Positions 9,943 to 46,892 of a stretch of DNA of 64,000 bases are shown here, piece by piece. The notes beneath the pieces were generated by a model, which saw only the letters and a list, made by a program, of their open reading frames with translations, was not told the origin of the DNA and did no database searches. Source of the stretch: Rhizobium sp. C1 (lineage in GTDB: Bacteria > Pseudomonadota > Alphaproteobacteria > Rhizobiales > Rhizobiaceae); NCBI RefSeq assembly GCF_021026335.1, contig NZ_JAJNCY010000001.1, forward strand, positions 248,001 through 312,000, written 5' to 3'. The stretch's first letter is position 1. The number at the start of each line of letters is the position of its first letter. Position numbers and translations under genes: made by a program.

Positions 9943-10160
9943 CCACGCCCTCCCGCTTGATCCAGCAGCTGCCGGCGCATCAGCTCGGTGGTGACATCAC
10001 AGAGGCGAGCCTGGATCTTCCAGCGGCGATGCGAGCCGGGGCGGGCGTTTTGAAGAGACTTCAAAAGCGCATTTCGGCGCTCTTCAAGCCTCTTCAAAGC
10101 CGCGCGATTTTCGACGGTCTGGAAGAGGTCGAGACCACGATCCGATCGGAGAGCACCCAT
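9939..10160 (-). CDS. Small early phage protein, unknown
   Basis: The 73-residue frame starts at an ATG that overlaps the previous stop (TGATG) and ends in ATGA with mor. It is helical and basic (KRLEERRNALLKSLQ, HRRWKIQARLCDV). No family is recognised. Tight coupling on both sides supports it as a real gene. Confidence 0.6.
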   Translation of the reverse strand: MGALRSDRGLDLFQTVENRAALKRLEERRNALLKSLQNARPGSHRRWKIQARLCDVTTELMRRQLLDQAGGRG

Positions 10161-28299: not shown

Positions 28300-29169
28300 C
28301 TATTTGTGCCGGCCGTTGCCGACTTCGGCACCGAATTTCATTTCGAGCAGGGTGCGCAGTATGAGGGTGACGAGGGCGAGTGCGGCCAGCAGCGAGGCGA
28401 CGGCAAAGGCGCTGTCGGTCGCATAGTCGTTGTATAGGGCCTCGATCTGCAGCGGCATGGTGAGCGTCTTGCCGCGCACATGGCCTGATACGACCGAGAC
28501 GGCCCCGAATTCGCCCATGGCGCGGGCGTTACAGAGAAGAACGCCGTAAAGCAGCGCCCATTTGATATTGGGAAGCGTGACGCGAACGAATGTTTGCCAG
28601 CCGGAGGCGCCAAGCGAGATTGCCGCTTCCTCGTCTGCGGTCCCTTGCGCCTGCATCAGCGGGATCAGCTCGCGCGCGATAAAGGGGAATGTTACGAAGA
28701 CGGTGGCGAGGAAAATACCGGGGAAGGCGAAGATGATCGGGAATCCCATGGACTTCAGCTGTGGCCCGAGCCATGTGTCCGCGCCAAAGAGCAGGACATA
28801 GACGAGACCCGAAATGACCGGCGAAACCGAAAAGGGCAGGTCGATCAGCGTGGTCAGAAAGGTCTTTCCCTTGAACTCGAACTTGGCGATCGCCCAGGCG
28901 GTCGCAATACCGAAGACAAGGTTGAACGGCACTGCCAATGCTGCGACCGACAGCGTCAGCCAGATCGCCGATTTGGTGTCGCTGTCTGTGAGCGTCTCGG
29001 CAAAACTGTCCCAGCCGGCCGCGAAGACGCGTCCGATGACGGTGCCGAGCGGCAGGACCAGAAACAGCGCCAGGAAAAGCGCGCAGATGCCGATAAGCAG
29101 CCAGCGGACGAGGACGGGTTCGCTGACCGGATTGCGGCGGCGAGAGGGTGTGGCGGATTGATCAACCAT
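28300..29169 (-). CDS. cysW: Sulfate ABC transporter permease CysW
   Basis: 289 residues from the ATG overlapping the cysT stop by eight bases. Six membrane segments; the ABC permease loop [15 protein letters not shown]; typical CysW start region [20 protein letters not shown]. It pairs with CysT to form the sulfate channel. Confidence 0.9.
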
Positions 29170-30019
29170 GGCCAAACCTCTTCTGGCTCCAGCTCTGGAT
29201 GCCGTTGATGACGAATAGCATCAGGAACGAGATCGCCAGCATGACGGCAGCAATGGCTGTGGCGCCCGCGTAGTTGAACTCTTCCAGCTTGATGACGATG
29301 AGCAGCGGTGCGATCTCCGATTTGAACGGCAGGTTGCCGGCAATGAAGATGACCGAGCCGTATTCGCCCACACCGCGCGCGAGCGCCAGCGCGAAGCCGG
29401 TGAGGATCGCCGGAATGAGAGGCGGGAGCACGACGAAGAAGATCGTCTGGAAGCGGTTTGCACCGAGTGTGGCGGATACTTCCTCCGTCTCGCGGTTGAT
29501 CTCTTCGAGAACCGGCTGCACCGTGCGCACGACAAAGGGGAAGCCGACCGCGATCAGTGCGACAATAATGCCGAGCGGCGTATAAGCCACCTGAATGCCG
29601 AGAGGGGCGAGGTATTGGCCGATGAGACCCTTCGGCGAATAGACCGCTGTCAGCGCGATGCCGGCCACGGCGGTCGGCATGGCGAAGGGCAGGTCGATCA
29701 GCGCATCGAAGATGCGACGACCATAGAAGTCATAGCGGACCAGAACCCAGGCGGTCAACGTGCCGAAAACCGCATTGGCGAGTGCTGCGGCAAGGGCTGT
29801 GAGGAAACTGATCTTGAGCGCCGCGAAGACGCGCGGATCGAGAACCAGTTCGTAAAGTCCGGCCGGACCGAGCGCTGCCGCCCGAAGCGCGAGCGCTGCG
29901 AGCGGGATCAGAACGATCAGGGTCAGCATGGTCAATGAAAGGCCGAGCGCCATTCCAAATCCTGGAATGACGCTCGGGTGCTTCCACTGCCATCCTTGGG
30001 AGGATTGCGTTGATGCCAT
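29162..30019 (-). CDS. cysT: Sulfate ABC transporter permease CysT
   Basis: 285 residues with six membrane segments, the permease loop EVSATLGANRFQTI and the CysT-typical SFLTALAAALANAVFGTLTA-type second helix (here FLTALAAALANAVFGTLTA). Sits 9 bases after the binding-protein gene. Forms the membrane channel with CysW. Confidence 0.92.
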   Translation of the reverse strand: MASTQSSQGWQWKHPSVIPGFGMALGLSLTMLTLIVLIPLAALALRAAALGPAGLYELVLDPRVFAALKISFLTALAAALANAVFGTLTAWVLVRYDFYGRRIFDALIDLPFAMPTAVAGIALTAVYSPKGLIGQYLAPLGIQVAYTPLGIIVALIAVGFPFVVRTVQPVLEEINRETEEVSATLGANRFQTIFFVVLPPLIPAILTGFALALARGVGEYGSVIFIAGNLPFKSEIAPLLIVIKLEEFNYAGATAIAAVMLAISFLMLFVINGIQSWSQKRFGHG

Positions 30020-30028
30020 GTATCAGTA

Positions 30029-31048
30029 TCACTTCGCCGGCTTGTAGAGCTGATCGAAGACGCCGCCGTCGCCGAAGAACTCGGGTTGTGCCTTCTTCCA
30101 GCCGCCGAAATCTTCAATCGTCGCTAGGTTGATCTTCGCAAAGCGGGCAATATCAGCCGGGTCTGCCTTGGTCGGGTCGTTCGGACGGTAGTAGTTCTTG
30201 GCGATCAGCTTCTGGGCTTCGGGCGAGTATAGATACTCGAGGTACGCCTGGGCAACCTTGGTCGTGCCATGGGCGTCCGCATTGCCCTTTACGAGGGCGA
30301 CCGGCGGTTCGGCCTTGATCGAGATGGAAGGCGAAATGATCTCGAACTTGTCTGCGCCAAGTTCGTCACCGGCGAGGTAGGCTTCGTTTTCCCAGGCAAT
30401 CAGCACGTCGCCGAGGCCACGTTCTGCGAAGGTCTGTGTTGCGCCGCGGGCGCCGGTGTCGAGAACCGGAACATGCTGGAAGAGCTTGGTGATGTAGTCG
30501 CGGATCTTCGCGTCATCGCCGCCGTAAGTCTTCTTGGCCCAGGCCCAGGCGGCGAGGAAGTTCCAGCGTGCGCCGCCGGAGGTCTTCGGGTTCGGCGTGA
30601 TGACCTGGACGCCGTCCTTGATCAGGTCGTTCCAGTCCTTGATGCCCTTCGGATTGCCCTTGCGCACGAGGAAGACGATGGTGGACGTATAGGGCGAGCT
30701 GTTGGCCGGCAGCAGCGTCTTCCAGTCAGCCGGGATCTTCTTCGTCTTTTCGGCGATCGCGTCGATGTCGGCTTCGATTGCCAGCGTCACGACGTCGGCT
30801 TCCAGACCGTCGATGACCGAACGGGCCTGCTTGCCCGAGCCGCCATGCGACTGATTGATCTTGATGTCCTCGCCGGCCGTGGCTTTCCAGTGCTTGGCGA
30901 AGAGTGCGTTATACTGCTTGTAGAACTCGCGGGTAGGGTCGTAGGAGACGTTCAGGATTTCCTGTCCAGCAAAAGCCGGCAATGCCGGGCCCGCGGCAAG
31001 CGCAAGCGAAAGGACAACAAGTCCGGCTTTGAAAGATTTGAGAACCAT
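30029..31048 (-). CDS. sbp: Periplasmic sulfate-binding protein
   Basis: 339 residues from an ATG with a GGAGG site. Signal peptide of about 26 residues ([19 protein letters not shown]...FAG), then [16 protein letters not shown] and [18 protein letters not shown], the sulfate-site segments of the Sbp/CysP family, and [18 protein letters not shown]. It delivers sulfate or thiosulfate to CysTWA. Probably first gene of the operon. Confidence 0.92.
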
Positions 31049-31076
31049 GCAGACCTCCATTGGGTTGATGGTTAAA

Positions 31077-34081: not shown

Positions 34082-35146
34082 TCAGTTCGGAATGACGAGA
34101 ACATCCGACGCCTTGAAATGCGCGGTCGCCATCTCCCCGATCTGCGGCGGCTGGAGGCCCGGATTGTTGAACATGTCGAACGAGACCTGCTGACCGTCCA
34201 CATCCATGCGCGTGCGGATGACCGAACCGAGGAAGTTGACGCTGGTCACGCGGCCGTCGAGAGTGACGTCGGAGGAGGGGGACTTGGAGAGCGACAGCGC
34301 TTCCGGGCGCAGCGCCACGGTAATCGCCGCGCCATCGCCCGAACCGTTGAGCTGCGAAGGCGGAATGCTGACGCTACGGCTGCCGAGGCGGACGGTGCCG
34401 GCATCGCGGTTTTCCACCTTGGCTTCCAGAATGTTGAGCGTGCCGACAAAACCCGCGACGAAGCGCGTGGCCGGGCGGTTGTAGATGTCCGAGGGCGTAC
34501 CGATCTGGTCGGCGATGCCGGCGTTCATGACGACGATGCGATCGGAGATGGAGAGTGCTTCTTCCTGGTCGTGGGTCACGAAGATGGTGGTGATGCCGAG
34601 CTTGCGCTGGATGGCGCGGATTTCCTCGCGGAGGGACACGCGGATCTTGGCGTCAAGTGCGGAGAGGGGTTCGTCGAGGAGGAGCACCTTCGGTTTGTTG
34701 GCGAGCGCACGGGCAAGGGCCACGCGCTGCTGCTGGCCGCCCGACATCTGGTAGGGATACCGGTCTTCCAGATGACCGAGATGGATGAGGTCCAGCATTT
34801 CCTTGACGCGCGCGTCAATCTCCGCCTTGGAGGCGCCGGCGACCTTGAGGCCGAAGGCGACGTTTTGCGCGACCGTCATATTCGGGAAGAGGGCATAGGC
34901 CTGGAAAACCATGCCGATATTGCGCTTGTTGGGCTTGAGACCGTTCTGGTTGACGCCGCCGATGGTGATCGTGCCGCCGGTCGGGGTCTCGAAGCCGGCG
35001 ATCATGCGCAGGACGGTTGTCTTGCCGCAGCCGGATGGCCCGAGGAAGGAAACGAATTCGCCTTCCTCGATCGACATGTTGAAATCATGGACGACCTTGA
35101 CCGGGCCGAAGGACTTCTGGACGTGGGAGAGTTCAAGATAGGACAT
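34082..35146 (-). CDS. ABC transporter ATP-binding protein, polyamine/Fe3+/AEP type
   Basis: 354 residues, GAGG before the ATG. Walker A GPSGCGKTT, signature [14 protein letters not shown], Walker B LLLDEPLSALD, and a C-terminal TOBE_2 domain (VALRPEALSLSKS) as in PotA, FbpC and PhnT. Encoded after two permeases and a binding protein. The substrate is not fixed by sequence; an amine or amino-phosphonate is suggested by the neighbouring catabolic genes. Confidence 0.85.
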   Translation of the reverse strand: MSYLELSHVQKSFGPVKVVHDFNMSIEEGEFVSFLGPSGCGKTTVLRMIAGFETPTGGTITIGGVNQNGLKPNKRNIGMVFQAYALFPNMTVAQNVAFGLKVAGASKAEIDARVKEMLDLIHLGHLEDRYPYQMSGGQQQRVALARALANKPKVLLLDEPLSALDAKIRVSLREEIRAIQRKLGITTIFVTHDQEEALSISDRIVVMNAGIADQIGTPSDIYNRPATRFVAGFVGTLNILEAKVENRDAGTVRLGSRSVSIPPSQLNGSGDGAAITVALRPEALSLSKSPSSDVTLDGRVTSVNFLGSVIRTRMDVDGQQVSFDMFNNPGLQPPQIGEMATAHFKASDVLVIPN

Positions 35147-35153
35147 TTGGACC

Positions 35154-35942
35154 TCAACGCGCGCCAGCGGCGCCCTTTTGCAGGCGGGTGGTGATATTAA
35201 TGAGAATGATCGAAACCCAGGTCATGGCAAAGGCGATCATGGCGAGCGCCGGCGGCTCATAGGCCTTGTTCGCGCCGATGAGCGCGAGATAGGGGCCGAA
35301 GGCGGGCCGGTTGAGGAGCGACGGCATGGTGAACTCGCCGACCGCGATCGCAAACGTGATGAAGGCGCCGGAAAGCACACCGGTCAGCACGTTCGGAAAG
35401 ATGCAGCGGAAGAGGATGGTCGTCCAGCTTGCGCCAAGGCTTTCCGCTGCTTCGGTCAAGACGGCCACATCGATCGTGCGCATGGCGGTGTCGACGGCCC
35501 GGTACATGTAGGGCAGCGACATTGTCATGAAACCGAAGACGAGAAGGATGTTGGTGCCTGTGTCGGAATTGGTGAGCGGCAGCACGGAGGAGGAGTTATA
35601 GAGCCGCAGATAGCCGAAGACGATGACGATGGCGGGCACGACGAGCGGCAGCAGCGTCACGAATTCGACGACCGGGCGGAGATAAGGCATGCGCAGCCGC
35701 ACCCAGTAGGCGGTTGGCACGATCAGCAGCGCGCCGACGACGATGGTGATCAACGCCATCACGACCGAATAGCTGAATGTCTCGGCGAAGCGCTGGTCGG
35801 AAAAGACCGAGCGATAGGCGTCGAAGGAATAGGTTCCGCGCCGCATGCGCATGGAGAATTCCATCGTCGCCGCCAGCGGCACGATGAAATAGACGGCGGC
35901 AACAGCAACGGCGAGCCAGGACCAGAATTTTTTGGCCGTCAT
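35154..35942 (-). CDS. ABC transporter permease (PotC-like)
   Basis: 262 residues from the ATG shared with the previous stop (ATGA). Six membrane helices and the EAAESLGASWTTILFRCIFP permease loop. The long frame upstream of this ATG reads the first permease out of frame and is not coding. Works with the permease, ATPase and binding protein of the operon. Confidence 0.88.
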   Translation of the reverse strand: MTAKKFWSWLAVAVAAVYFIVPLAATMEFSMRMRRGTYSFDAYRSVFSDQRFAETFSYSVVMALITIVVGALLIVPTAYWVRLRMPYLRPVVEFVTLLPLVVPAIVIVFGYLRLYNSSSVLPLTNSDTGTNILLVFGFMTMSLPYMYRAVDTAMRTIDVAVLTEAAESLGASWTTILFRCIFPNVLTGVLSGAFITFAIAVGEFTMPSLLNRPAFGPYLALIGANKAYEPPALAMIAFAMTWVSIILINITTRLQKGAAGAR

Positions 35943-36811
35943 TTCTGCCACCTTTCGGCGCGCATACGCAGCCAGATGTAGATGAAGTTGGAAATGCCGG
36001 TGATGACCACCATGCCGAAGGCGACTGCGTAGCCGAGGTTCGGATTGTGCAGCACGTCGCCCCGGATCTGCGCGAAGAGTACGATCGGCACGATGTTGAG
36101 CGAGGAGCCGGTCAGCGCCACGGCGGTTGCGACGGCTCCGAAGGCATTCGCGAAGAGAAGCAGAAGAGTGCCGAAAACGCTCGGCCAGAGGATGGGGATG
36201 ACGACCATGCGCCAATACTGCCAGGGCGTTGCGCCCAGAACGCTGGCGGCTTCCGACCATTCGCGCTTGAGCCCGTCCAGCGCCGGCGTGATGATCAACA
36301 CCATGAGCGGGATCTGGAAATACATGTAGGTCAGCGTCAGCCCGAGGAAACTCAGGAGGTTGAAGCCGGCCCCGTAGAGATTGAAGCCGAAGACGTCGCG
36401 GAGCAGGATGGTGACCAGGCCGAGACGGCCGAGCGTCGCCAGAAAGGCGAAGGCGAGCGGCACACCGGCGAAGTTCGAGGCGACGCCGCAAAAGGTCAGC
36501 ACCGCCGAGCGCAACCAGGAGGGCAGGCCACCCAGCGAGATAGCGGCTGCGAGCGCAAAGCCGATGATGGCGCCGCCGATTGCGGAGGCTGCGGACACCT
36601 TGATGGAGATGATATAGGCGGCGAGGATGCTCGGCTGGAACAGGTCGACCAGATTCTTCAGCGTCAGATTGCCGTTCGGATCGACGAAGGCGCCGCTGAT
36701 CAAATAGACGGTCGGCGCGATCAGAAACATGACCGAGAAAATGGCGAAGGGCGCTATGCCGAGCCAATCGGTAATCATGCGTCTGTTCAGGAGCGGTTGC
36801 GTTGCAGCCAT
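35939..36811 (-). CDS. ABC transporter permease (PotB-like)
   Basis: 290 residues, six membrane helices, permease loop EAASVLGATPWQYWRMVVIP. Starts about 90 bases after the binding-protein gene; a hairpin lies in the gap. Forms the heterodimeric channel with the next permease. Confidence 0.88.
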   Translation of the reverse strand: MAATQPLLNRRMITDWLGIAPFAIFSVMFLIAPTVYLISGAFVDPNGNLTLKNLVDLFQPSILAAYIISIKVSAASAIGGAIIGFALAAAISLGGLPSWLRSAVLTFCGVASNFAGVPLAFAFLATLGRLGLVTILLRDVFGFNLYGAGFNLLSFLGLTLTYMYFQIPLMVLIITPALDGLKREWSEAASVLGATPWQYWRMVVIPILWPSVFGTLLLLFANAFGAVATAVALTGSSLNIVPIVLFAQIRGDVLHNPNLGYAVAFGMVVITGISNFIYIWLRMRAERWQK

Positions 36812-36861
36812 GCGGTCCCCGGTCTTTTCGTTCTTGAGCCCTTTGCGGGCCGCTTCGGGTC

Positions 36862-36886
36862 GGCTCCCCCGGTGTCCGGGGAAGCC
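36862..36886 (-). promoter_or_regulatory. Intercistronic hairpin after binding-protein gene
   Basis: On the minus strand GGCTTCCCCGG pairs with CCGGGGGAGCC with one T/G bulge pair and a three-base loop. Hairpins in this place often stabilise the message for the binding protein, which is needed in excess over the membrane parts. Confidence 0.5.
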
Positions 36887-36904
36887 GTATGCGAATGGTT
36901 CGCC

Positions 36905-38008
36905 TTACTTGACGTTGGCGCCGACGACCTTGTCCCAGCCCTCGGTGATCGTCTTCTTGTAGGCGGCCTGTTCTTCGAGCGTCGGGAAGACAGCCTCCTT
37001 GTAGGCTTCTGCCGGCGGCAGCTTTGCGAGCAGATCAGCCGGGATCTTGCCGGCCTTTGCCATGGCGTTGAAGCGGATCGGGTGGCAGAAGCCCTTCAGC
37101 CATTCGATCTGGCCTTCGTCGGAATAGAGGTATTCCATCCAGAGCTTGGCGGCGTTCGGGTGCGGCGCGAAAGCAGAGATCGCCTGGACGTAAACGCCGG
37201 CGACGACGCCCGAAGCCGGAACGACGACCTGGTAGGGCGGATTGCCCTTGAGGCTTTCACCCCAGCTCATGGCGTTATAGTCCCATGCAGCGACGATCGG
37301 CGTTGTGCCCTGCGCGAACGGAGCGGCCTTGCCGATGACCGGAACGAAGTTGCCGGCAGCGTTGAGGCTCTTGAAGAATTCGAGGCCGGCCTCGCCTGCC
37401 TTCGTAACGTCACCCTTGGCGGCGGAGAGGCCAGCGGCGAAGACGCCGGAGATGGCCTGGTTTGCCTGGCGCGGGTCACCGGCCAGCGCTACCATGTTGG
37501 CATATTCCGGCTTCTGCAGGTCGGCCCAGTCCTTCGGAATGTTCTTCACGAGGTCCTTGTTCACGAGCAGCGACATGACGCCGTAATAGTCGCCATACCA
37601 GTAGCCTTCGGCATCCTTGGCGTTATCCGGAATTTCGCCCCAGGTGGAGACCTTGTAAGGCTGGATCAGGCCGTCCTTCTTGGCCTGCGGGCCGAAGGAG
37701 AGACCGACGTCGATCACGTCGGGAGCCTGCGGGCCGGTATTGCCCTTGTTGGCCTTGATGGCTTCGATTTCGTCGCCTGAGCCGGCATCGGGGTTCAGTT
37801 CGTTGACGGCAATGCCGTACTTCTTCTTGAAGCCTTCGATTGCGCCGCCATAGTTGCACCAGTCGTGCGGAAGCGCGATCGTGGTCAGCGTGCCTTCCTT
37901 CTTGGCTGCGGCAACGAGATCTTCCATTGCGCCGGCCCGTGCGACGCCGGAAGCTGCAATGGCAATCGCTGTCGTCAGCGACAGGACTTTGAGAGACGTC
38001 TCGATCAT
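36905..38008 (-). CDS. ABC transporter substrate-binding protein (PotD/Fbp-like)
   Basis: 367 residues from ATG with GGAG six bases ahead. Signal peptide about 25 residues, then MEDLVAAAKKEGTLTTIALP (the usual opening of Fe3+/AEP/polyamine binding proteins), LVNKDLVKNIPKDWADL and PHPNAAKLWMEYLYSDEGQ. Periplasmic receptor of the operon. Ligand unknown. Confidence 0.85.
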   Translation of the reverse strand: MIETSLKVLSLTTAIAIAASGVARAGAMEDLVAAAKKEGTLTTIALPHDWCNYGGAIEGFKKKYGIAVNELNPDAGSGDEIEAIKANKGNTGPQAPDVIDVGLSFGPQAKKDGLIQPYKVSTWGEIPDNAKDAEGYWYGDYYGVMSLLVNKDLVKNIPKDWADLQKPEYANMVALAGDPRQANQAISGVFAAGLSAAKGDVTKAGEAGLEFFKSLNAAGNFVPVIGKAAPFAQGTTPIVAAWDYNAMSWGESLKGNPPYQVVVPASGVVAGVYVQAISAFAPHPNAAKLWMEYLYSDEGQIEWLKGFCHPIRFNAMAKAGKIPADLLAKLPPAEAYKEAVFPTLEEQAAYKKTITEGWDKVVGANVK

Positions 38009-38108
38009 GTTCTTCTCCTCTAGGTGCCGGCGGTCTGCCCGCACGGTTGTCGGTCGAATATTGGTAATGCGTAACGTTTGTGTGACAGGCTGAAAGCCTG
38101 GTCTTCGA

Positions 38109-39023
38109 TCAGGTCTGCTGCTTCCCCCGCTTTTCTCGTCTGAGTGGTCTCCTGAACAGGCTGGTGGTGTCGAAAAGTTCCTCCAGATCGCTCATGCGCT
38201 CGCGGGTGGAGTCCCAGTTTGCGCTCTGCACTGCCTCGATCAGCGCCTCCACCAGAAGCAGCGTCATGACGGAGGAATCCCAGGCTGACGGCACTTCGAT
38301 ATTAAGGCGGAAGACCACTTTGGCATGCTTGACGATGGGCGAGCCCCAGGTGTCGGTAAAGAGGATGATGAAAATGCCGCGTTCGGCGGCGATCTTCGCC
38401 ATGGTCTCCATCTCCTGCTCGTAGCGGCGGATGTCGAACAGCACGAGAATATTGCCCGGCCGCATGTTGAGAACATATTGCGGCCATGTGCTGCGGTTGG
38501 TCGAAATCAGCGTCACGCCGGAGCGAATGACCTGCAGATGGGTGAAGAAATAATCCGCCAGCGCGTGGGTGATGCGTCCGCCGGCGAGATAGACCGGCTT
38601 CTTGCGATTGGAAAGCTCGGCTGCCGCCCGGTCGAAATCCGGTATCGAGATATTGGAGAGGCTGTCGCGCATATTGGCGACCACCGCGTCGGCGAAGCGG
38701 TTGAGAATATGGGTTCCGGGCGCATTGGTCGCCCAGCGGTCATGTTTTGAAATCGGGTTGGAGATCGTCTCTTCCAGCTCCTGATGCAGGCGCGACTGGA
38801 AATCGGGAAAGCCGGAAAAGCCAAGCTTCTGCACCATGCGCACGACGGTCGGCGTCGACACGTGCGCATTTTCAGCCAGCGCCGTAATCGATACGAGGCC
38901 GGAGACGGGATAGTTGTCGAGAAGCGTTTCCGCCAATTGCCTCTCGGCCCGCGTGAGCGTGTCATAGCTCGCGCCGATAATGTCCGAAACTGTTTTCAAG
39001 TTTCCGGTCAAAACTATGCTCAC
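38109..39023 (-). CDS. RpiR-family regulator (HTH plus SIS domain)
   Basis: 304 residues. Helix-turn-helix about residues 20-85 (TRAERQLAETLLDNYPV, LAENAHVSTPTVVRMVQKLG, GFPDFQSRLHQEL) and a SIS domain about 125-270 (PVYLAGGRITHALADYF, ILVLFDIRRYEQE). RpiR proteins bind small ligands, usually phosphorylated, in the SIS domain. It lies between the ABC operon and the divergent catabolic operon, whose promoter holds two matching palindromes. One ligand could control both units. Confidence 0.88.
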   Translation of the reverse strand: MSIVLTGNLKTVSDIIGASYDTLTRAERQLAETLLDNYPVSGLVSITALAENAHVSTPTVVRMVQKLGFSGFPDFQSRLHQELEETISNPISKHDRWATNAPGTHILNRFADAVVANMRDSLSNISIPDFDRAAAELSNRKKPVYLAGGRITHALADYFFTHLQVIRSGVTLISTNRSTWPQYVLNMRPGNILVLFDIRRYEQEMETMAKIAAERGIFIILFTDTWGSPIVKHAKVVFRLNIEVPSAWDSSVMTLLLVEALIEAVQSANWDSTRERMSDLEELFDTTSLFRRPLRREKRGKQQT

Positions 39024-39191
39024 CCTCTGGCAAAGCGCGCCGCAAAGGATTGCGGTCCGATCCCCACCGTTCTTCTGCGTTTCGCGGGTTTGTCCGGTTC
39101 GTCTTGTCCGTCAAACATCGCCCGCCGATCTGATGCCGGCATTGTCACAATTCTAAGCGCAGGAACCGAGGGCGAGTCAACGCGCATTTTT

Positions 39192-39249
39192 TGAAAAGAT
39201 AATTTCAGAACCGAATTGACATGCGCGAGTTTTTGAAGAACATTTTTCA
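39192..39249 (+). promoter_or_regulatory. Promoter with twin TGAA-N8-TTCA operators
   Basis: Two 16-base sites of the form TGAA-N8-TTCA (39192-39207 and 39234-39249) lie 42 bases apart, about four helical turns. Between them TTGACA (39216-39221) and AACATT (39239-39244) make a promoter with 17-base spacing, so site two covers the -10. RpiR-type regulators often bind TGAA/TTCA palindromes. This would control the catabolic operon that starts at 39275. Confidence 0.65.
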
Positions 39250-39274
39250 GAAATAAACATGCTGGGAACAGACG

Positions 39275-40084
39275 ATGCGCAAGTGGGAAGGCGTACTTTC
39301 GCCCGAGGAGGGCGAACCGTTTGGCGTGGAGCTGGGGGAGGGGCGGGGACCTTTCGTCATCGTCTGCGAGCATGCGTCATTCACGCTGCCGCAATCCATG
39401 GGCGATATGGGCCTGAGTGAAGAGGCCCGGCGTTCACACATCGCCTGGGATCCGGGGGCGCTTGCTGTCGCTCGGCGTCTTTCTGCCGGCTTTGACAGCC
39501 CGTTGGTGTTTCAGCGATTTTCCCGACTCGTCTACGATTGCAACCGCCCGCCGGAATCGCCTGCGGCCATGCCGGCCAAGAGCGAAGTCTACGCTGTGCC
39601 GGCCAATGAGAACCTCGGCGGCGAGGCGCGACTTGCGCGGACGGACGCACTTTACCGACCGTTTCACACGGCTGTTTCCAGACTGATCGATCGCCGCACC
39701 GCTGCGGGTCTGCCGACATCCGTGCTGACCGTTCACAGTTTCACGCCGGTCTATTTCGGAGTGCCGCGCGCCGTGGAGGTCGGCATTCTGCACGATGCCG
39801 ACAGCCGGCTTGCCGATGCCATGCTCTCGGCAGCCTCCGCGGACAAGCGTTACATCGTGCGCCGCAACGAACCCTATGGTCCCGCCGACGGTGTGACGCA
39901 CAGCCTTATCCTCCACGGGATTTCTCGCGGAATCCCGAATGTCATGATCGAGGTCAGAAACGACCTCGTTGCAGATCAAGCCGGCCAAGAGGTCATGGCC
40001 GGATACCTGTCTGAACTGCTTGCACAAGCGATCGGGAGCCAGGTGAATAATAACAAGACCTTCGTGAATGTCAGAAGCCAGTAA
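39275..40084 (+). CDS. N-formylglutamate amidohydrolase-like enzyme
   Basis: 269 residues. FVIVCEHASFTLPQSMG carries the family's EHAS/N motif (metal-site Glu-His), followed by LSEEARRSHIAWDPGALAVA, FSRLVYDCNRPPESP, VLTVHSFTPVYFG and VMIEVRNDL, all typical of FGase/HutG-type zinc amidohydrolases. In the histidine pathway these cut N-formylglutamate; here no hut genes are near. Next to a gamma-glutamyl ligase it more likely frees glutamate from a gamma-glutamyl amide (inference). Confidence 0.8.
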   Translation: MRKWEGVLSPEEGEPFGVELGEGRGPFVIVCEHASFTLPQSMGDMGLSEEARRSHIAWDPGALAVARRLSAGFDSPLVFQRFSRLVYDCNRPPESPAAMPAKSEVYAVPANENLGGEARLARTDALYRPFHTAVSRLIDRRTAAGLPTSVLTVHSFTPVYFGVPRAVEVGILHDADSRLADAMLSAASADKRYIVRRNEPYGPADGVTHSLILHGISRGIPNVMIEVRNDLVADQAGQEVMAGYLSELLAQAIGSQVNNNKTFVNVRSQ

Positions 40085-40136
40085 ATTCAAACGGACGACA
40101 TTGGCGCCGCAAGGCGTGAACAGGGGAACTTCAACG

Positions 40137-41705
40137 ATGAGTGACTACTCTGAAACAGACAAGAAGCAGGATCTCGCGATCCTGCATTCCATGGGCTATG
40201 CCCAGGAACTGGAACGGCGGATGAGTTCGTTTTCGAACTTCGCCATTTCCTTCTCCATCATCTGCATTCTTTCGGGCGGCATCAATTCGCTCGCGCAGGC
40301 GACGGCCGGCGCGGGTGGTGCCGCCATCGGTATCGGCTGGCCGCTGGGCTGCGTGATTTCGGGCGTCTTCGCGCTCGCCATGGCGCAGATTTCCTCGGCC
40401 TATCCGACGGCCGGCGGGCTCTATCACTGGGGTTCGATCCTCGGCAACCGCTTCACCGGCTGGGTGACGGCCTGGTTCAACCTGCTTGGCCTTGTGACCG
40501 TTCTCGGCGCCATCAATGCCGGCACCTGGGGCTTCTTCTCGGGTTCGATCGGTCCGTGGCTCGGCATCAATGTTGATGCAACGACCTCCGCCGGCTTTGC
40601 CAACCAGATCATCTTCGTGGCGCTGATCACCGCGCTTCAGGCGCTGATCAACCATTTCGGCATCAAGCTGACCGCCAAACTCACCGACATGTCGGGCTAT
40701 CTCATCTTCGTGACCGCGATCGCCCTGACGCTCGTGTGCTTCTTTGGTGCGGCGCATTGGGATTTCAGCCGTCTTTGGACCTTCACCAACTATTCCGGCC
40801 AGCCCGACGCTTCTGCCGTATGGCCGAAGAGCGACAGCATCTGGTACATTTTCGCGCTCGGCCTGCTGCTGCCGATCTACACGATCACCGGCTATGACGC
40901 CTCGGCGCATACCTCGGAAGAGACCGTCAAGGCTGCCGAATCCGTGCCGCGCGGCATGATCTCTTCGGTCTGGTGGTCGGCCTTCTTCGGCTACATCATG
41001 CTCATCGCCTTCCTGCTTGCTATCCCGAACATGGATGATGCTGCCAAGCAGGGTTGGAACGTGTTCTTCTGGACGATGGACAGCGTGGCCAATCCGGTCG
41101 TGAAGAACATTCTCTACGTCGCGATCTTCATCTCGCAGTTCCTGTGCGGTCTTGCGACGGTGACCTCGGTGTCGCGCATGATCTTCGCCTTCTCGCGTGA
41201 CGGCGGTCTGCCGTTGTCGAAGACGCTGGCCAGCGTCAGCCGCAAGTTCCGTACGCCGTCCACGGCCATCTGGGTAGGCAGCACCTTGTCCGTTCTCTTC
41301 GTCTGGGGTGCCTCGCTGATCGAGATTGCCGGTTCGACCGCCTACACGATCGTCGTCTCGTGCACCGTCATCTTCCTGTTCCTCTCCTTCGCTATCCCGA
41401 TCGCGCTCGGCATCTTTGCCATCGGCACAAGCAAGTGGCCGCAGATGGGACCGTGGAACATGGGGGCAGGGCTCTACAAGCTGGTGGCGGTTCTTGCCGT
41501 GATCGCGATGGTCGTGATCTTCGTCATCGGCGTTCAGCCGCCAAACCAGTACGCCGCCTATATCACGGTTGGCTTCCTGATCCTGACGGGCATCGTGTGG
41601 CTGGTGTTCGAAAACAAGCGCTTCAAGGGCCCGCCGATCGGCGAGGAAGTCGCGAAGCGTCAGGCGGAAATTGCAGCCGCCGAACATGCCGTAGGCGAGG
41701 CCTAA
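40137..41705 (+). CDS. APC-family amino acid/amine permease
   Basis: 522 residues from ATG after GGGGA. About 12 membrane helices; the APC start MGYAQELERRMSSFSNFAIS, FSIICILSGGINSLA and the GYDASAHTSEET motif typical of the GABA/choline/ethanolamine permease branch (as in EutP/EatA, Uga4-like). Imports an amine or amino acid. Second gene of the catabolic operon. Confidence 0.87.
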   Translation: MSDYSETDKKQDLAILHSMGYAQELERRMSSFSNFAISFSIICILSGGINSLAQATAGAGGAAIGIGWPLGCVISGVFALAMAQISSAYPTAGGLYHWGSILGNRFTGWVTAWFNLLGLVTVLGAINAGTWGFFSGSIGPWLGINVDATTSAGFANQIIFVALITALQALINHFGIKLTAKLTDMSGYLIFVTAIALTLVCFFGAAHWDFSRLWTFTNYSGQPDASAVWPKSDSIWYIFALGLLLPIYTITGYDASAHTSEETVKAAESVPRGMISSVWWSAFFGYIMLIAFLLAIPNMDDAAKQGWNVFFWTMDSVANPVVKNILYVAIFISQFLCGLATVTSVSRMIFAFSRDGGLPLSKTLASVSRKFRTPSTAIWVGSTLSVLFVWGASLIEIAGSTAYTIVVSCTVIFLFLSFAIPIALGIFAIGTSKWPQMGPWNMGAGLYKLVAVLAVIAMVVIFVIGVQPPNQYAAYITVGFLILTGIVWLVFENKRFKGPPIGEEVAKRQAEIAAAEHAVGEA

Positions 41706-41726
41706 GCGCGCTCTGCCAGCTATATT

Positions 41727-41752
41727 GGCTCCGGCTGCTCACGGCCGGAGCC
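41727..41752 (+). terminator. Hairpin between permease and synthetase genes
   Basis: GGCTCCGGC pairs with GCCGGAGCC, nine bases and an eight-base loop, in the 111-base gap. There is no good T tract, so it may only attenuate or stabilise the message. Confidence 0.45.
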
Positions 41753-41816
41753 CCTTCAAACCAATAAAGACAACGAGGCCGTCCAAGCGGCCAATAGGGA
41801 ACAGGGACAGCTTCTG

Positions 41817-43184
41817 ATGAGCGCCAGATACGATTTCGAGACCTTGAAGACGGACGTTGCTGAGGGCCGGATTGATACGGTTCTGGCCGTACAGGTCGAC
41901 ATGCAGGGACGGCTCATGGGTAAGCGCTTCCACGCGCAATATTTCATCGACAGTGCCTGGCATGAGACGCATAGCTGCAACTATCTGCTGGCGACCGATA
42001 TCGAGATGGAGACGGTTCCGGGCTACAAGGCCACGAGCTGGGAGGCCGGCTACGGCGACTACACGATGAAGCCGGACCTTTCGACGCTTCGGCGCATTCC
42101 CTGGCTCGAAGGCACGGCCATGGTCATCTGCGACGTGCTCGATCATCATACGCATGAAGAGGTTCCCCATTCGCCGCGCGCGATCCTGAAGAAACAGGTC
42201 AAGCGGCTCGAGGCCATGGGTCTCAAGGCCTATATGGCCACCGAACTCGAATTCTTCCTCTTCGACCAGACCTATGACGACGCGCGCGAGAGCGGCTATC
42301 GCGACCTGCGTCTCTGCTCGGGCTATAACGAGGACTATCACATCTTCCAGACCTCCAAGGAAGAAGACGTGATGCGCGCCATCCGCAACGGGCTCTACGG
42401 CGCCGGCATCACGGTCGAGAATTCCAAGGGCGAGGCCTCCGCCGGGCAGGAAGAGATCAACGTCAAGTATGACGAGGCGGTCGTCACCGCCGACCAGCAT
42501 TCGATCGTCAAGAATGGCGCCAAGGAAATCGCCTGGGCGCGCGGCAAGGCGATCACCTTCCTGGCCAAGTGGAGTAACGCCGCTGCCGGCAGTTCGTCCC
42601 ATATCCACCAGTCGCTCTGGTCGCTCGACGGCAAACCGATGTTCTACGATCCGAACGGCCGCTACGGCATGTCGAAGATGATGGAGCATTATGTGGCGGG
42701 CCTGCTCGCACATGCCGAGGAAGTGACCTATTTCCTCGCGCCCTATATCAACTCCTACAAGCGCTTCGTCGCCGGCACGTTCGCGCCGACCAAGGCGATC
42801 TGGTCGAAGGACAACCGCACCGCCGGCTATCGCCTTTGCGGCGAGGGCTTGAAGTCCATCCGCATCGAATGCCGTGTCGGTGGCTCCGACCTCAACCCAT
42901 ATCTCGCCCTCGCAGCCCTTCTGGCTGCCGGGATCGACGGCATCGAAAAGCAGATGCCGCTCGAAGATCCCTTCACCGGCGATGCTTACAAGGCCGGCGA
43001 AATCCGCGAGGTGCCGAAGACGCTGCGTGCCGCGACGGATGCACTCAACAAGTCTGAGCTTCTGCGTTCCGCTTTCGGCAATGGCGTGGTCGATCACTAT
43101 GTCCGTGCGGCGGAGTGGGAACAGGAAGAATACGACCGCAAGATCACGGATTGGGAAGTGGCGCGCGGGTTCGAAAGGGCGTAA
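41817..43184 (+). CDS. Glutamine synthetase-like gamma-glutamyl ligase (GlnT/PuuA type)
   Basis: 455 residues with the GS fold: an N-terminal beta-grasp (about 1-110), then the catalytic ATELEFFLF metal site, NSKGEASAGQEEINVKY, the SSSHIHQSLW nucleotide/His loop, and KRFVAGTFAPTKAIW, RIECRVGGSDLNPYLALAA. The NRTAGYR and IECR positions match GS-like ligases of amines (PuuA, GlnA4) better than true GlnA. It would join glutamate to an amine with ATP. Directly followed by dehydrogenases. Confidence 0.85.
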   Translation: MSARYDFETLKTDVAEGRIDTVLAVQVDMQGRLMGKRFHAQYFIDSAWHETHSCNYLLATDIEMETVPGYKATSWEAGYGDYTMKPDLSTLRRIPWLEGTAMVICDVLDHHTHEEVPHSPRAILKKQVKRLEAMGLKAYMATELEFFLFDQTYDDARESGYRDLRLCSGYNEDYHIFQTSKEEDVMRAIRNGLYGAGITVENSKGEASAGQEEINVKYDEAVVTADQHSIVKNGAKEIAWARGKAITFLAKWSNAAAGSSSHIHQSLWSLDGKPMFYDPNGRYGMSKMMEHYVAGLLAHAEEVTYFLAPYINSYKRFVAGTFAPTKAIWSKDNRTAGYRLCGEGLKSIRIECRVGGSDLNPYLALAALLAAGIDGIEKQMPLEDPFTGDAYKAGEIREVPKTLRAATDALNKSELLRSAFGNGVVDHYVRAAEWEQEEYDRKITDWEVARGFERA

Positions 43185-43331
43185 ACCGGCCTCAAATTTT
43201 GCTTCGATGGTGTGGACGGCTTCACTCGAGGCCGGTCGACTGAACGTCGGAGCGATCGGTCTCAAGAGAGGAATTCCGATCCCGCCACCGGCGGGATGGA
43301 TATTTTGGAAAACAAGATCAGGAAAAAGATC

Positions 43332-44714
43332 ATGACGATGATCCGATGCATTTCGCCGGTTGACGGTTCGGTCTATGCCGAACGTCCGGCGATGAGTTAC
43401 GACGATGCGGCTGCAGCGGTTGCGCGTGCCCGCAAGGCGCAGAAGTCCTGGGCGAAGCGTCCGCTGGAAGAGCGCGTGCAGCTGGTTTTGAAAGGTGTTG
43501 CGCGGCTCAACGAGATGGCCGATGTCGTGGTTGAGGAGCTGGCCTGGCAGATGGGCCGTCCGGTGCGCTATGGCGGCGAGTTCAAGGGCTTCAACGAGCG
43601 CTCCAATTATGTCGCGACGATTGCCGCCGATGCGCTGGCGCCACTGAAGGTCGAAAGCTCGGACAAGTTCGAACGCTATATCGAGCGCGAGCCGCATGGC
43701 GTCGTCTTCGTCATCGCGCCGTGGAACTATCCCTACATGACCGCGCTCAACACGATTGCGCCGGCGCTGATGGCGGGCAACACCGTCGTGCTCAAGCATG
43801 CATCGCAGACGCTGCTGGTCGGCGAGCGCTTCGTGCAGGCCTTCAACCAGGCGGGCGTGCCTGAAGACGTGTTCATGAACGTCTTCCTCGACCATGACAC
43901 GACGACGAAGCTGATTGCGGCCGGCTCGTTCAACTTCATCAACTTCACCGGCTCCGTCGAAGGCGGGCGCAATATCGAGCGCGCCGCTGCCGGCACGTTC
44001 ACCGGCACGGGTCTTGAGCTCGGCGGCAAGGATCCGGGCTATGTCATGGAAGACGCCGATCTCGATGCGGCCGTCGACACGCTGATGGATGGCGCGACCT
44101 ACAATTCCGGCCAGTGCTGCTGCGGCATCGAGCGCATCTATGTGAACGAAAATCTCTATGACGAATTCGTCGAGAAGTCGGTCGCCTGGGTGTCCAACTA
44201 CAAGCTCGGCAACCCGCTCGACAAGGAAACGACGCTCGGCCCGATGGCGCACAAGCGCTTTGCCGCGACCGTGCGCGAACAGATCGCTCAGGCCGTTTCG
44301 AAGGGGGCGAAGGCATTGGTCGATCCCAAGCTCTTCCCGGCGGACGATGGTGGCGCCTATATCGCCCCGCAGATCCTCGTCGATGTCGATCATTCGATGG
44401 AAATCATGCGCGAGGAGACCTTCGGTCCGGCTGTCGGCATCATGAAGGTCAAGAACGACGCCGAAGCGCTCGAACTGATGAACGATTGCAAATACGGTCT
44501 CACCGTGTCGCTGTGGACCAAGGATGCGGAGCGCGCCGCCCGTCTCGGTCGCGATCTGGAGACCGGCACGGTGTTCATGAACCGCGCCGACTATGTCGAT
44601 CCGGGCCTCTGCTGGACCGGCTGCAAGGACACGGGCCGCGGCGGCTCGCTCTCCATCATCGGCTTCCACAACCTGACCCGTCCGAAATCCTATCACCTCA
44701 AGAAGGCACTCTAA
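43332..44714 (+). CDS. Aldehyde dehydrogenase
   Basis: 460 residues from ATG with AGGA before it; an earlier ATG at 43296 is possible. NAD-binding FVIAPWNYPYMTALNTIAPALMAGN region (residues about 126-150), TGSVEGGRNI, Glu229 in LELGGK, and the catalytic region GQCCCG around Cys263. Oxidises an aldehyde to the acid; here probably a gamma-glutamyl-amino-aldehyde made by the following alcohol dehydrogenase. A hairpin ATCCCGCC/GGCGGGAT lies before the gene. Confidence 0.9.
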   Translation: MTMIRCISPVDGSVYAERPAMSYDDAAAAVARARKAQKSWAKRPLEERVQLVLKGVARLNEMADVVVEELAWQMGRPVRYGGEFKGFNERSNYVATIAADALAPLKVESSDKFERYIEREPHGVVFVIAPWNYPYMTALNTIAPALMAGNTVVLKHASQTLLVGERFVQAFNQAGVPEDVFMNVFLDHDTTTKLIAAGSFNFINFTGSVEGGRNIERAAAGTFTGTGLELGGKDPGYVMEDADLDAAVDTLMDGATYNSGQCCCGIERIYVNENLYDEFVEKSVAWVSNYKLGNPLDKETTLGPMAHKRFAATVREQIAQAVSKGAKALVDPKLFPADDGGAYIAPQILVDVDHSMEIMREETFGPAVGIMKVKNDAEALELMNDCKYGLTVSLWTKDAERAARLGRDLETGTVFMNRADYVDPGLCWTGCKDTGRGGSLSIIGFHNLTRPKSYHLKKAL

Positions 44715-44715
44715 G

Positions 44716-45861
44716 ATGTCGATTACTGCAAACTGGAGCTACCCGACCCTCGTCAAGATGGGGGCAGGGCGCATCAAGGAACTCGCCGATCACTGCAAGT
44801 CGCTTGGCATGAAGAAGCCGCTTCTGGTCACTGACCGTGGTCTCTCGACCATGCCGATCACGAAGCAGGCGCTCGACATTCTGGAAGCCGGCGGCCTTGG
44901 CCGAGCGATCTTCGCCGATGTTGATCCGAACCCGAACGAGAAGAACCTCGAAGCCGGCGTGAAGGCTTTCAAGGATGGCGGTCATGACGGCGTCGTCGCG
45001 TTTGGCGGTGGCTCGGGCCTCGACCTCGGCAAGTGCGTGGCTTTCATGGCCGGCCAGACCCGCCCGGTCTGGGATTTCGAGGATATCGGCGACTGGTGGA
45101 CCCGCGCTTCCGTTGAGGGCATTGCGCCGATCGTGGCCGTGCCGACGACGGCCGGCACCGGCTCGGAAGTCGGCCGCGCTTCGGTCATCACCAATTCGGT
45201 GACGGAAACGAAGAAGATCATCTTCCATCCGAAGTTCCTGCCCGGCGTGACGATCTGCGATCCGGAACTGACCGTCGGCATGCCGAAGCACATCACCGCC
45301 GGCACGGGCATGGATGCGTTTGCGCATTGCCTGGAAGCCTATTCCTCGCCCTTCTACCATCCGATGAGCCAGGGCATTGCGCTCGAAGGCATGCGGCTGG
45401 TGAAGGAATACCTGCCGCGCGCCTATGCCGACGGAACGGATATCGAAGCTCGCACCCACATGATGTCGGCGGCCGCCATGGGCGCGGTGGCCTTCCAGAA
45501 GGGCCTCGGCGCGATCCATTCGCTTTCGCACCCGGTCGGCGCGATCTACCATACGCATCACGGCACCACGAATGCCGTCGTCATGCCGCCGGTCCTGCGC
45601 TTCAACCGGCCCGCGATTGAGGACCGGATTGCCGCGGCTGCGGCCTATCTCGGCATCGCCGGTGGCTTCAACGGCTTCTACGATTTCGTTCTGGGCCTGC
45701 GCGAGACGCTTGGCATTCCCGACAAGCTCGCAGCGCTCGGCGTGAAGACGGATCGCATCGACGAAATGTCGGTCATGGCTGTTGCCGACCCGTCGACGGG
45801 CGGCAATCCGGTCGAACTGACGGTCGAGGCTGCGAAGACGCTCTTCCTCGAATCGATCTGA
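44716..45861 (+). CDS. Iron-containing (group III) alcohol dehydrogenase
   Basis: 381 residues. NAD site GGGSGLDLGK (about residue 95), PTTAGTGSEVGRASVIT, and metal ligands in the DPELTVGMPKHITAGTGMDA, AFAHCLEAYSSPFYHP and HSLSHPVGAIYHTHHGTTNA segments (Asp and three His). It starts one base after the ALDH stop. Predicted to turn an alcohol, likely a gamma-glutamyl amino alcohol, into the aldehyde for its partner. Confidence 0.92.
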   Translation: MSITANWSYPTLVKMGAGRIKELADHCKSLGMKKPLLVTDRGLSTMPITKQALDILEAGGLGRAIFADVDPNPNEKNLEAGVKAFKDGGHDGVVAFGGGSGLDLGKCVAFMAGQTRPVWDFEDIGDWWTRASVEGIAPIVAVPTTAGTGSEVGRASVITNSVTETKKIIFHPKFLPGVTICDPELTVGMPKHITAGTGMDAFAHCLEAYSSPFYHPMSQGIALEGMRLVKEYLPRAYADGTDIEARTHMMSAAAMGAVAFQKGLGAIHSLSHPVGAIYHTHHGTTNAVVMPPVLRFNRPAIEDRIAAAAAYLGIAGGFNGFYDFVLGLRETLGIPDKLAALGVKTDRIDEMSVMAVADPSTGGNPVELTVEAAKTLFLESI

Positions 45862-45914: not shown

Positions 45915-46175
45915 CGTTGTGGATGGCTGAACTTGCGTGCCGCATCCGCGATGTCGCTCAAGCTTTGCGTAAGCCAGTCCGCACAAACTTTCCCCACTGA
46001 GTTCAGATTCGCATGTTTTGTTGGCGTTCCGTTGGCGGATCGTTAATTGCTGCAATCAGCTTTAAGCCTCCGTTAACCATGATTTACGCATTGTGTACCT
46101 GTCGCGAAGCAGCGAACGACATGCATGGTCCTTCAAGCCGGATGGGGTTCCGGCGGGCCGATTAGGGGGTTTGGA
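45915..46175 (+). promoter_or_regulatory. Promoter region of orphan parA with CtrA-like half site
   Basis: The gap before the ParA gene holds TTAACCAT at 46073-46080, followed by GATTTAC so that a TTAA-N7-TTAC pattern is formed, close to the CtrA consensus TTAA-N7-TTAA. It sits 96 bases upstream of the start. No other gene is seen in this gap. Confidence 0.4.
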
Positions 46176-46892
46176 ATGCCAGTCATTTCACTTGCAAATA
46201 CAAAAGGCGGCGCAGGGAAGACGACGGCGGCTCTGCTGCTGGCGTCCGAATATGTCCGCCAGGGCTACCGCGTCGCCGTCCTCGACGCCGATCCTCAGAA
46301 GTGGATCACCAACTGGTACGAGACCGGTGGCCGGGATCCGAGCCTCACCGTGATCTCGGAAGTGACGGTTGCGTCGCTTCAGACGCATATCCGTGAAATG
46401 CGCGACCAGATCGATTTCTTCATCATTGATCTTCCCGGCCAGCGCGATCCATTGCTGGCAACGGCTCTCGGCCTTTCCGACCACGTTCTCATCCCGGTTC
46501 AGGGCTGTGCGATGGACGCCAAGGGCGCGGCGCAGGTCATCGAGCTTCTGACGCATATGAAGACCCAGGCGAAGATTTCCATCCCGCATTCTGTCGTGCT
46601 CACCCGTGTCAGTTCCATTGCAACGACCAGAGCGCTTTCGGCGATCAAGGATCTGCTCGTCTCGCGCGGCGTCAACGTTCTCGAAACGCCGATCTTCGAA
46701 CGGTCGGCCTTCCGCGACATTTTCGACCTCGGCACGATGCTGCACAACGCAGACCCCGCCCGCATCACCAATCTCGACAAGGCGCGTGAGAATGCCCGCG
46801 TGCTGGCTCTGGAGCTGAAGCGCCTGTTACCGGCCAAGCGCCGCGAACAGCCGATGGGTCTTGCCGCACGGCTTCGTGCGCGGGCGGCCTGA
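46176..46892 (+). CDS. Orphan ParA/MinD-family ATPase
   Basis: 238 residues from ATG with AGGGGG six bases ahead. Deviant Walker A KGGAGKTT (about residues 10-17), Walker A' VAVLDADPQ, and FFIIDLPGQRDPL in place of the B motif. No parB or parS is adjacent, so it may position another cargo or act like VirC1-type ParA proteins. The C-terminus is Arg-rich. Confidence 0.85.
   Translation: MPVISLANTKGGAGKTTAALLLASEYVRQGYRVAVLDADPQKWITNWYETGGRDPSLTVISEVTVASLQTHIREMRDQIDFFIIDLPGQRDPLLATALGLSDHVLIPVQGCAMDAKGAAQVIELLTHMKTQAKISIPHSVVLTRVSSIATTRALSAIKDLLVSRGVNVLETPIFERSAFRDIFDLGTMLHNADPARITNLDKARENARVLALELKRLLPAKRREQPMGLAARLRARAA

Follow-up and report, generated by a model that had tools for sequence, protein, structure and literature searches.

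A rhizobial operon predicted to encode the gamma-glutamyl-ethanolamide pathway, with a variable transporter slot and a candidate operator pair

A plus-strand operon in Rhizobium sp. C1 is in all likelihood a rhizobial copy of the gamma-glutamyl-ethanolamide pathway, which would convert ethanolamine to glycine, with an RpiR-family regulator probably repressing it. The operon lies beside the genes of an ABC transporter in a window of 64,000 nucleotides (contig NZ_JAJNCY010000001.1, positions 248,001 to 312,000) from a genome of 4.53 Mb, and positions below are those of the window. Gene content, gene order, conservation and a pair of operator-like sites are direct observations on the DNA. The interest of the locus lies in transport and regulation, the changing transporter set being the less charted part.

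In the predicted route, the APC permease would take up ethanolamine, possibly together with the ABC transporter. The PF00120 ligase would join it to glutamate with ATP, the iron alcohol dehydrogenase would oxidise gamma-glutamyl-ethanolamide to gamma-glutamyl-acetaldehyde, and the aldehyde dehydrogenase would carry this on to gamma-glutamyl-glycine, which the FGase-type amidohydrolase would split into glycine and glutamate. RpiR would probably repress the operon from two operators bracketing the promoter. Every reaction, the substrate, the inducer and the role of the ABC transporter are predictions from sequence.

Features of the locus:
34082-35146, minus strand: ABC transporter ATPase, PhnT2/PotA-like (profile searches)
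35154-35942, minus strand: ABC permease B (reading frame and relatives; its start overlaps the end of permease A)
35939-36811, minus strand: ABC permease A (profile searches)
36905-38008, minus strand: ABC solute-binding protein (SBP), SBP_bac_6 (profile and structure searches)
38109-39023, minus strand: RpiR-family regulator, HTH_6 and SIS (Pfam)
39192-39207, no strand given: predicted operator 1, TGAAAAGATAATTTCA (motif search)
39216-39221, plus strand: TTGACA, predicted -35 of the catabolic operon (motif position)
39234-39249, no strand given: predicted operator 2, TGAAGAACATTTTTCA, overlapping the expected -10 (motif search)
39275-40084, plus strand: FGase-family amidohydrolase, predicted gamma-glutamylglycine amidohydrolase (PF05013)
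40137-41705, plus strand: APC permease, TIGR00907-like (PF13520)
41817-43184, plus strand: PF00120 ligase, predicted gamma-glutamyl-ethanolamide synthetase (PF00120)
43332-44714, plus strand: aldehyde dehydrogenase, predicted gamma-glutamyl-acetaldehyde dehydrogenase (PF00171)
44716-45861, plus strand: iron alcohol dehydrogenase, predicted gamma-glutamyl-ethanolamide dehydrogenase (PF00465)

Enzymes of the operon and the published pathway

All operon genes are open frames of named families, as reading frames and profile searches agree; the starts of the APC permease (40137), the aldehyde dehydrogenase (43332), the SBP (38008) and permease B (35942) are probable. On the plus strand, Pfam scores are 143 bits for FGase (PF05013), 175 for AA_permease_2 (PF13520), 348 for Gln-synt_C (PF00120), 408 for Aldedh (PF00171) and 157 for Fe-ADH (PF00465). 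At the level of the order, 87 places with a relative of the ligase were found and 72 loci were fetched around them. By identity thresholds, amidohydrolase, aldehyde dehydrogenase and iron alcohol dehydrogenase all lie near the ligase relative in 50 of the 72, and one or two of them do in a further 14. Because so many loci carry the three partners together, the arrangement is not due to chance, and the gene set and order given in the initial annotation are borne out by open frames, Pfam families and conservation alike.

Individual enzymes point the same way. The ligase is 64.1% identical over 446 positions to the solved structure 5dm3, which we take to be the C. salexigens pathway ligase, and 60.9% identical to 11zs; the amidohydrolase is 58.5% identical to 2odf (Atu2144) and stays far below the N-formylglutamate deformylase model HutG (TIGR02017, 18.6 bits, cut-off 278.75).

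The published system nearest in layout is that of Phaeobacter sp. MED193 (10021-10056), described as encoding, in order, RpiR, the amidohydrolase GGAH, the TRAP transporter EtoVWX, ETAGA, GAADDH and GETADH (PMC10132767). The window has the same order of RpiR, amidohydrolase, transporter, ligase, aldehyde dehydrogenase and iron alcohol dehydrogenase, but an APC permease stands in the slot of EtoVWX, and the MED193 figure legend, unlike the window, lists no ABC genes in its cluster. The enzymes and EtoX of that operon are reported as more abundant on phosphorylethanolamine, and EtoX as binding ethanolamine at ~8 uM and not phosphorylethanolamine (PMC10132767). The same source names the pathway for C. 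salexigens and A. tumefaciens C58 and gives C. salexigens a TRAP binding protein for ethanolamine. A table in PMC9397018 assigns to the pathway in Chromohalobacter salexigens the families PF00120, PF00465, PF00171 and PF05013, all four of which are in the window operon, whereas transport in the window falls to an APC permease and a linked ABC transporter. In Streptomyces coelicolor, ethanolamine gamma-glutamylation is described for GlnA4, with the same steps proposed and an FGase-family last step, as predicted here; unlike the window with its RpiR gene, the legend for that cluster names EtuRI as regulator without any RpiR, and it also shows a short-chain dehydrogenase and a glutamine amidotransferase (PMC6529630). 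Since the pathway is described for Phaeobacter, C. salexigens, A. tumefaciens and Streptomyces, it is already known, which rules out its novelty (PMC10132767, PMC6529630, PMC9397018). The window operon is a well-supported predicted rhizobial member of it.

Two other routes invite comparison. The E. coli puu pathway shares ligation to glutamate, aldehyde oxidation and amide hydrolysis, and differs in using the FAD oxidase PuuB and the class I amidase PuuD where the window has an iron alcohol dehydrogenase and an FGase-type enzyme; neither a PuuB-type oxidase nor a PuuD-type amidase was found among the operon proteins scanned with Pfam. The EutBC route with its ethanolamine permease also serves ethanolamine use, and such a set lies elsewhere in the same genome, but EutBC, by ammonia-lyase chemistry, converts ethanolamine to acetaldehyde without a glutamyl intermediate. 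The contrast first drawn with puu and eut thus stands. Vetting et al. (2015) is reportedly the primary source on the glutamyl pathway.

Ethanolamine as the predicted substrate

No other substrate is nearly as likely as ethanolamine, and glycine is the predicted product. The route and the amino-alcohol class of substrate proposed at the outset gain support from the enzyme set and order of the published pathway and from the ethanolamine-type transporters that relatives carry in the same slot. The idea that the substrate is a diamine or a plain amine (puu-like or isopropylamine-like), or that the ligase is an ordinary glutamine synthetase, is very improbable. PF00120 ligases span many amines, and the best NCBIfam matches of the window ligase are to GlnA (TIGR00653, 274.2 bits, cut-off 429.15) and the type III glutamine synthetase (TIGR03105, 245.4 bits, cut-off 469.6). 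Against this, both scores, like that to the gamma-glutamylputrescine (puu) model NF045547 (208.7 bits, cut-off 650), are far under the cut-off, a stronger PF00120 gene (468.6 bits) sits elsewhere in the genome at G000:C1:927646, and the scanned operon proteins include no FAD oxidase or class I amidase.

The genome also carries genes for EutB, EutC and an ethanolamine permease (L109:5514-9116, G000:C20), beside a QhpR-like AraC regulator; this permease scores 600.7 bits to TIGR00908. Across genomes, those with EutB tend to lack the ligase and the reverse. Counted without regard to kinship, and in samples that overlap a little, the ligase is present in 5 of 23 EutB genomes versus 81 of 98 others in the family (Fisher 5e-8), and in 4 of 49 versus 83 of 150 in the order (1.5e-9). 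A pattern of this kind would be expected of two routes that use the same nutrient, and the present genome, with both, is unusual.

Several points weigh against ethanolamine and the glutamyl pathway. The genome has EutBC with a TIGR00908 permease, and the glutamyl pathway would therefore be redundant here if its substrate is ethanolamine. The exclusion counts take no account of kinship. Eight of the 72 order-level loci hold a ligase relative (49-70% identity) with no partner enzyme in the fetched stretch, and the APC permease of the window has no match at all to the ethanolamine permease model TIGR00908 (cut-off 381.75).

The redundancy would be removed if the operon served another short amino alcohol (2-amino-1-propanol, that is alaninol, or 1-amino-2-propanol) and EutBC took the ethanolamine in this genome. 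The pathway chemistry suits other amino alcohols, and 4xf5, a second structure entry with the same sequence as the binding protein 4uab, is presumably an alaninol complex. We regard this alternative as unlikely: the window ligase groups in the tree with ligases linked to EtoX, few genomes have both EutB and the ligase, and within the genus two genomes, G212 and G312, contain the cluster but lack EutB. The gene neighbourhood on three plasmids also speaks for ethanolamine by agreeing with glycine as end product. On Aminobacter pMET3 and pAA03 and on a Paracoccus pantotrophus plasmid, genes for RpiR, FGase, ligase, aldehyde dehydrogenase and iron alcohol dehydrogenase are followed by bhc genes (for Paracoccus only bhcBCD are listed), and the ligases are 76-78% identical to that of the window. 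The beta-hydroxyaspartate (bhc) cycle condenses glycine with glyoxylate. This adjacency comes from three of six plasmid regions opened, out of 35 records with a match, and the three clusters may share one origin. Three papers in the open-licence literature searched mention both glutamyl-ethanolamine and the beta-hydroxyaspartate cycle, none of them being on this link by its title. In these Aminobacter and Paracoccus clusters (L252, L253 and L262), which lie directly before the bhc genes, the ligase follows the amidohydrolase with no transporter gene in between.

Ethanolamine is a common nutrient that derives from phosphatidylethanolamine, and the ligase of the glutamyl route is far commoner than EutB in the family genomes sampled (86 versus 23 of 121).

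Transporters of the locus

The slot between amidohydrolase and ligase has been swapped repeatedly, an observation new in this analysis. Among the 50 order-level loci with all three partners it holds a TRAP system in 32, a window-type APC permease in 8, a TIGR00908-like permease in 3 and no recognised transporter in 7. The 20 family loci fetched include at least 10 with APC, at least 4 with TRAP, at least 5 with a TIGR00908-like permease and at least 1 with none recognised. In a further set of 80 named loci, 61 hold the ligase (two of these repeat loci of the other sets), with APC in 51, a TIGR00908-like permease in 7 and TRAP in 3. Even S. meliloti differs by record, 4H41 having TRAP and Ak57 a window-type permease, and in the ligase tree the window ligase belongs to a five-row set of four APC clusters and one TRAP cluster (97 SH-aLRT).

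Relatives with ligases 78-82% identical to that of the window carry TRAP or a TIGR00908-like permease. One of the TRAP clusters has a binding protein with 71.8% identity to 4uab, which we take to be the C. salexigens protein with bound ethanolamine, and the slot permease of one relative scores 359 bits to TIGR00908, just under its cut-off. The window operon has no DctP, DctQ or DctM TRAP genes in the Pfam scan; its slot is filled by the PF13520 protein, whose best model is TIGR00907 (209.9 bits, under the cut-off of 598.3). Because this permease takes the place of an ethanolamine transporter while the rest of the cluster is the same, it would most simply carry ethanolamine. The transporters of the window are the least certain part of the route.

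The ABC operon (34082-38008) extends beyond the region first annotated, to 34082, with an ATPase and two permeases; permease B was read as an open frame and the other listed proteins were profile-scanned. The SBP has its best matches in 2-aminoethylphosphonate models, far below cut-off (NF011620, 68 bits of 310; PhnS, 62.8 of 395.3), and the ATPase also stays below the cut-offs of such models (PhnT2, 425.7 of 457.7; PhnT, 313.6 of 499.15). The predicted structure of the SBP (mean pLDDT 85.3) is closest in a fold search to C. jejuni 5t1p (Z 35.3, 36% identity), followed by AfuA, 3pu5, MctA and others (Z 23-25), and the search gave no ligand assignment. That the operon has transporters of its own holds for the genes; ethanolamine is a candidate substrate of the ABC system, the APC permease lacks an ethanolamine permease match, and the label "amine-type" for the ABC transporter, which is indeed present, was loose given these aminoethylphosphonate scores.

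Genomic distribution bears on its role. The SBP was located at 73 places, spread over 69 of the 121 family genomes, and 48 of the 73 lie within 7 kb of a ligase (upstream and divergent in 23, downstream on the same strand in 24, placed otherwise in 1), with APC, TRAP and TIGR00908-like clusters alike. It is present in 37 of 199 genomes of the order sample and absent from the fetched stretch of TRAP clusters outside the family. Its closest relatives are mostly from Rhizobium or "Rhizobiales bacterium", others being from Sinorhizobium, Neorhizobium, Kaistia and Agrobacterium, among others. A TIGR00908-like permease adjoins the ABC genes in 4 of 19 named loci without ligase, and genome G239 has one, together with EutC, at a distance of ~6 kb. 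In family genomes free of the ligase, the SBP accompanies EutB (14 of 18 with EutB versus 2 of 17 without, p 1.3e-4); this was not reproduced in ligase-free genomes of the order sample (6 of 45 versus 5 of 67, p 0.34), and the association holds at family level only. Among the few neighbours of ligase-unlinked copies that were scanned, and the recurrent ones listed (an efflux pump, TerC, 6PGD and others), no common theme was seen.

These data suggest a PhnS/AfuA-like transporter that is a candidate importer of ethanolamine, at slightly less than an even chance. That it is a dedicated importer of ethanolamine or an ester of it, acting alongside another permease and supplying the glutamyl route or EutBC depending on the rhizobium, is likewise a little less likely than not. 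If so, transport, not enzymology, would be the fast-evolving part of ethanolamine use. In the open-licence literature the phrase "ethanolamine ABC transporter" was not found, nor, by titles and the starts of abstracts, a rhizobial ABC ethanolamine system. The analysis nominates this ABC family for binding assays and offers an RpiR operator pair that can be tested. At L113:8498-13368 and L173, the ABC operon faces genes for an APC permease of the window type and for a more divergent iron alcohol dehydrogenase (59-64%), with no ligase, aldehyde dehydrogenase or amidohydrolase beside it.

The RpiR-amidohydrolase gap and neighbouring genes

The gap between rpiR and the amidohydrolase gene in the window holds two TGAA-N8-TTCA sites, 42 bp apart, that bracket the predicted promoter. 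This paired arrangement, new in this analysis, is a predicted operator. The site recurs in the same gap in 80 of 87 family-type regions (77 of 84 distinct), the seven without it being L247, L157, L248, L232, L229, L243 and L236, and in only 8 of 1740 letter-shuffled regions. Two sites are present in 26 family-type regions, exactly 42 bp apart in 24, with constant positions relative to TTGACA. Outside the group a site is present in only 9 of 46 order-level regions, and the motif is therefore a feature of the family-type group. A stricter pattern, TGAARARNNNNTTTCA, occurs at 5 places in the genome, 2 of them at this operon (backward control, 1), and one of the other 3 precedes a gene that, judged by eye, resembles HldE. 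With two mismatches allowed, a similar pattern has 10 matches in the window and a mean of 4.78 in shuffles (10 or more in 7 of 100); it is no rarer in the real sequence.

The paired sites point to control of the plus-strand operon by RpiR. The same does not extend to the ABC genes: control of them by RpiR through an operator of their own was rejected, as none of 146 loci (141 distinct by DNA) has TGAA-N8-TTCA within 400 bp upstream of the SBP. The ABC genes are possibly co-transcribed with rpiR in the divergent arrangement.

A ParA-like gene (46125-46892) directly follows the iron alcohol dehydrogenase gene and occupies the same place in several relatives (so annotated in L254 and L255); judged by eye, it is also in L130, a locus without the ligase cluster. 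At 29162-31060 on the minus strand, a binding protein and a permease look by eye, with no profile search, like a sulfate ABC system unrelated to the operon.

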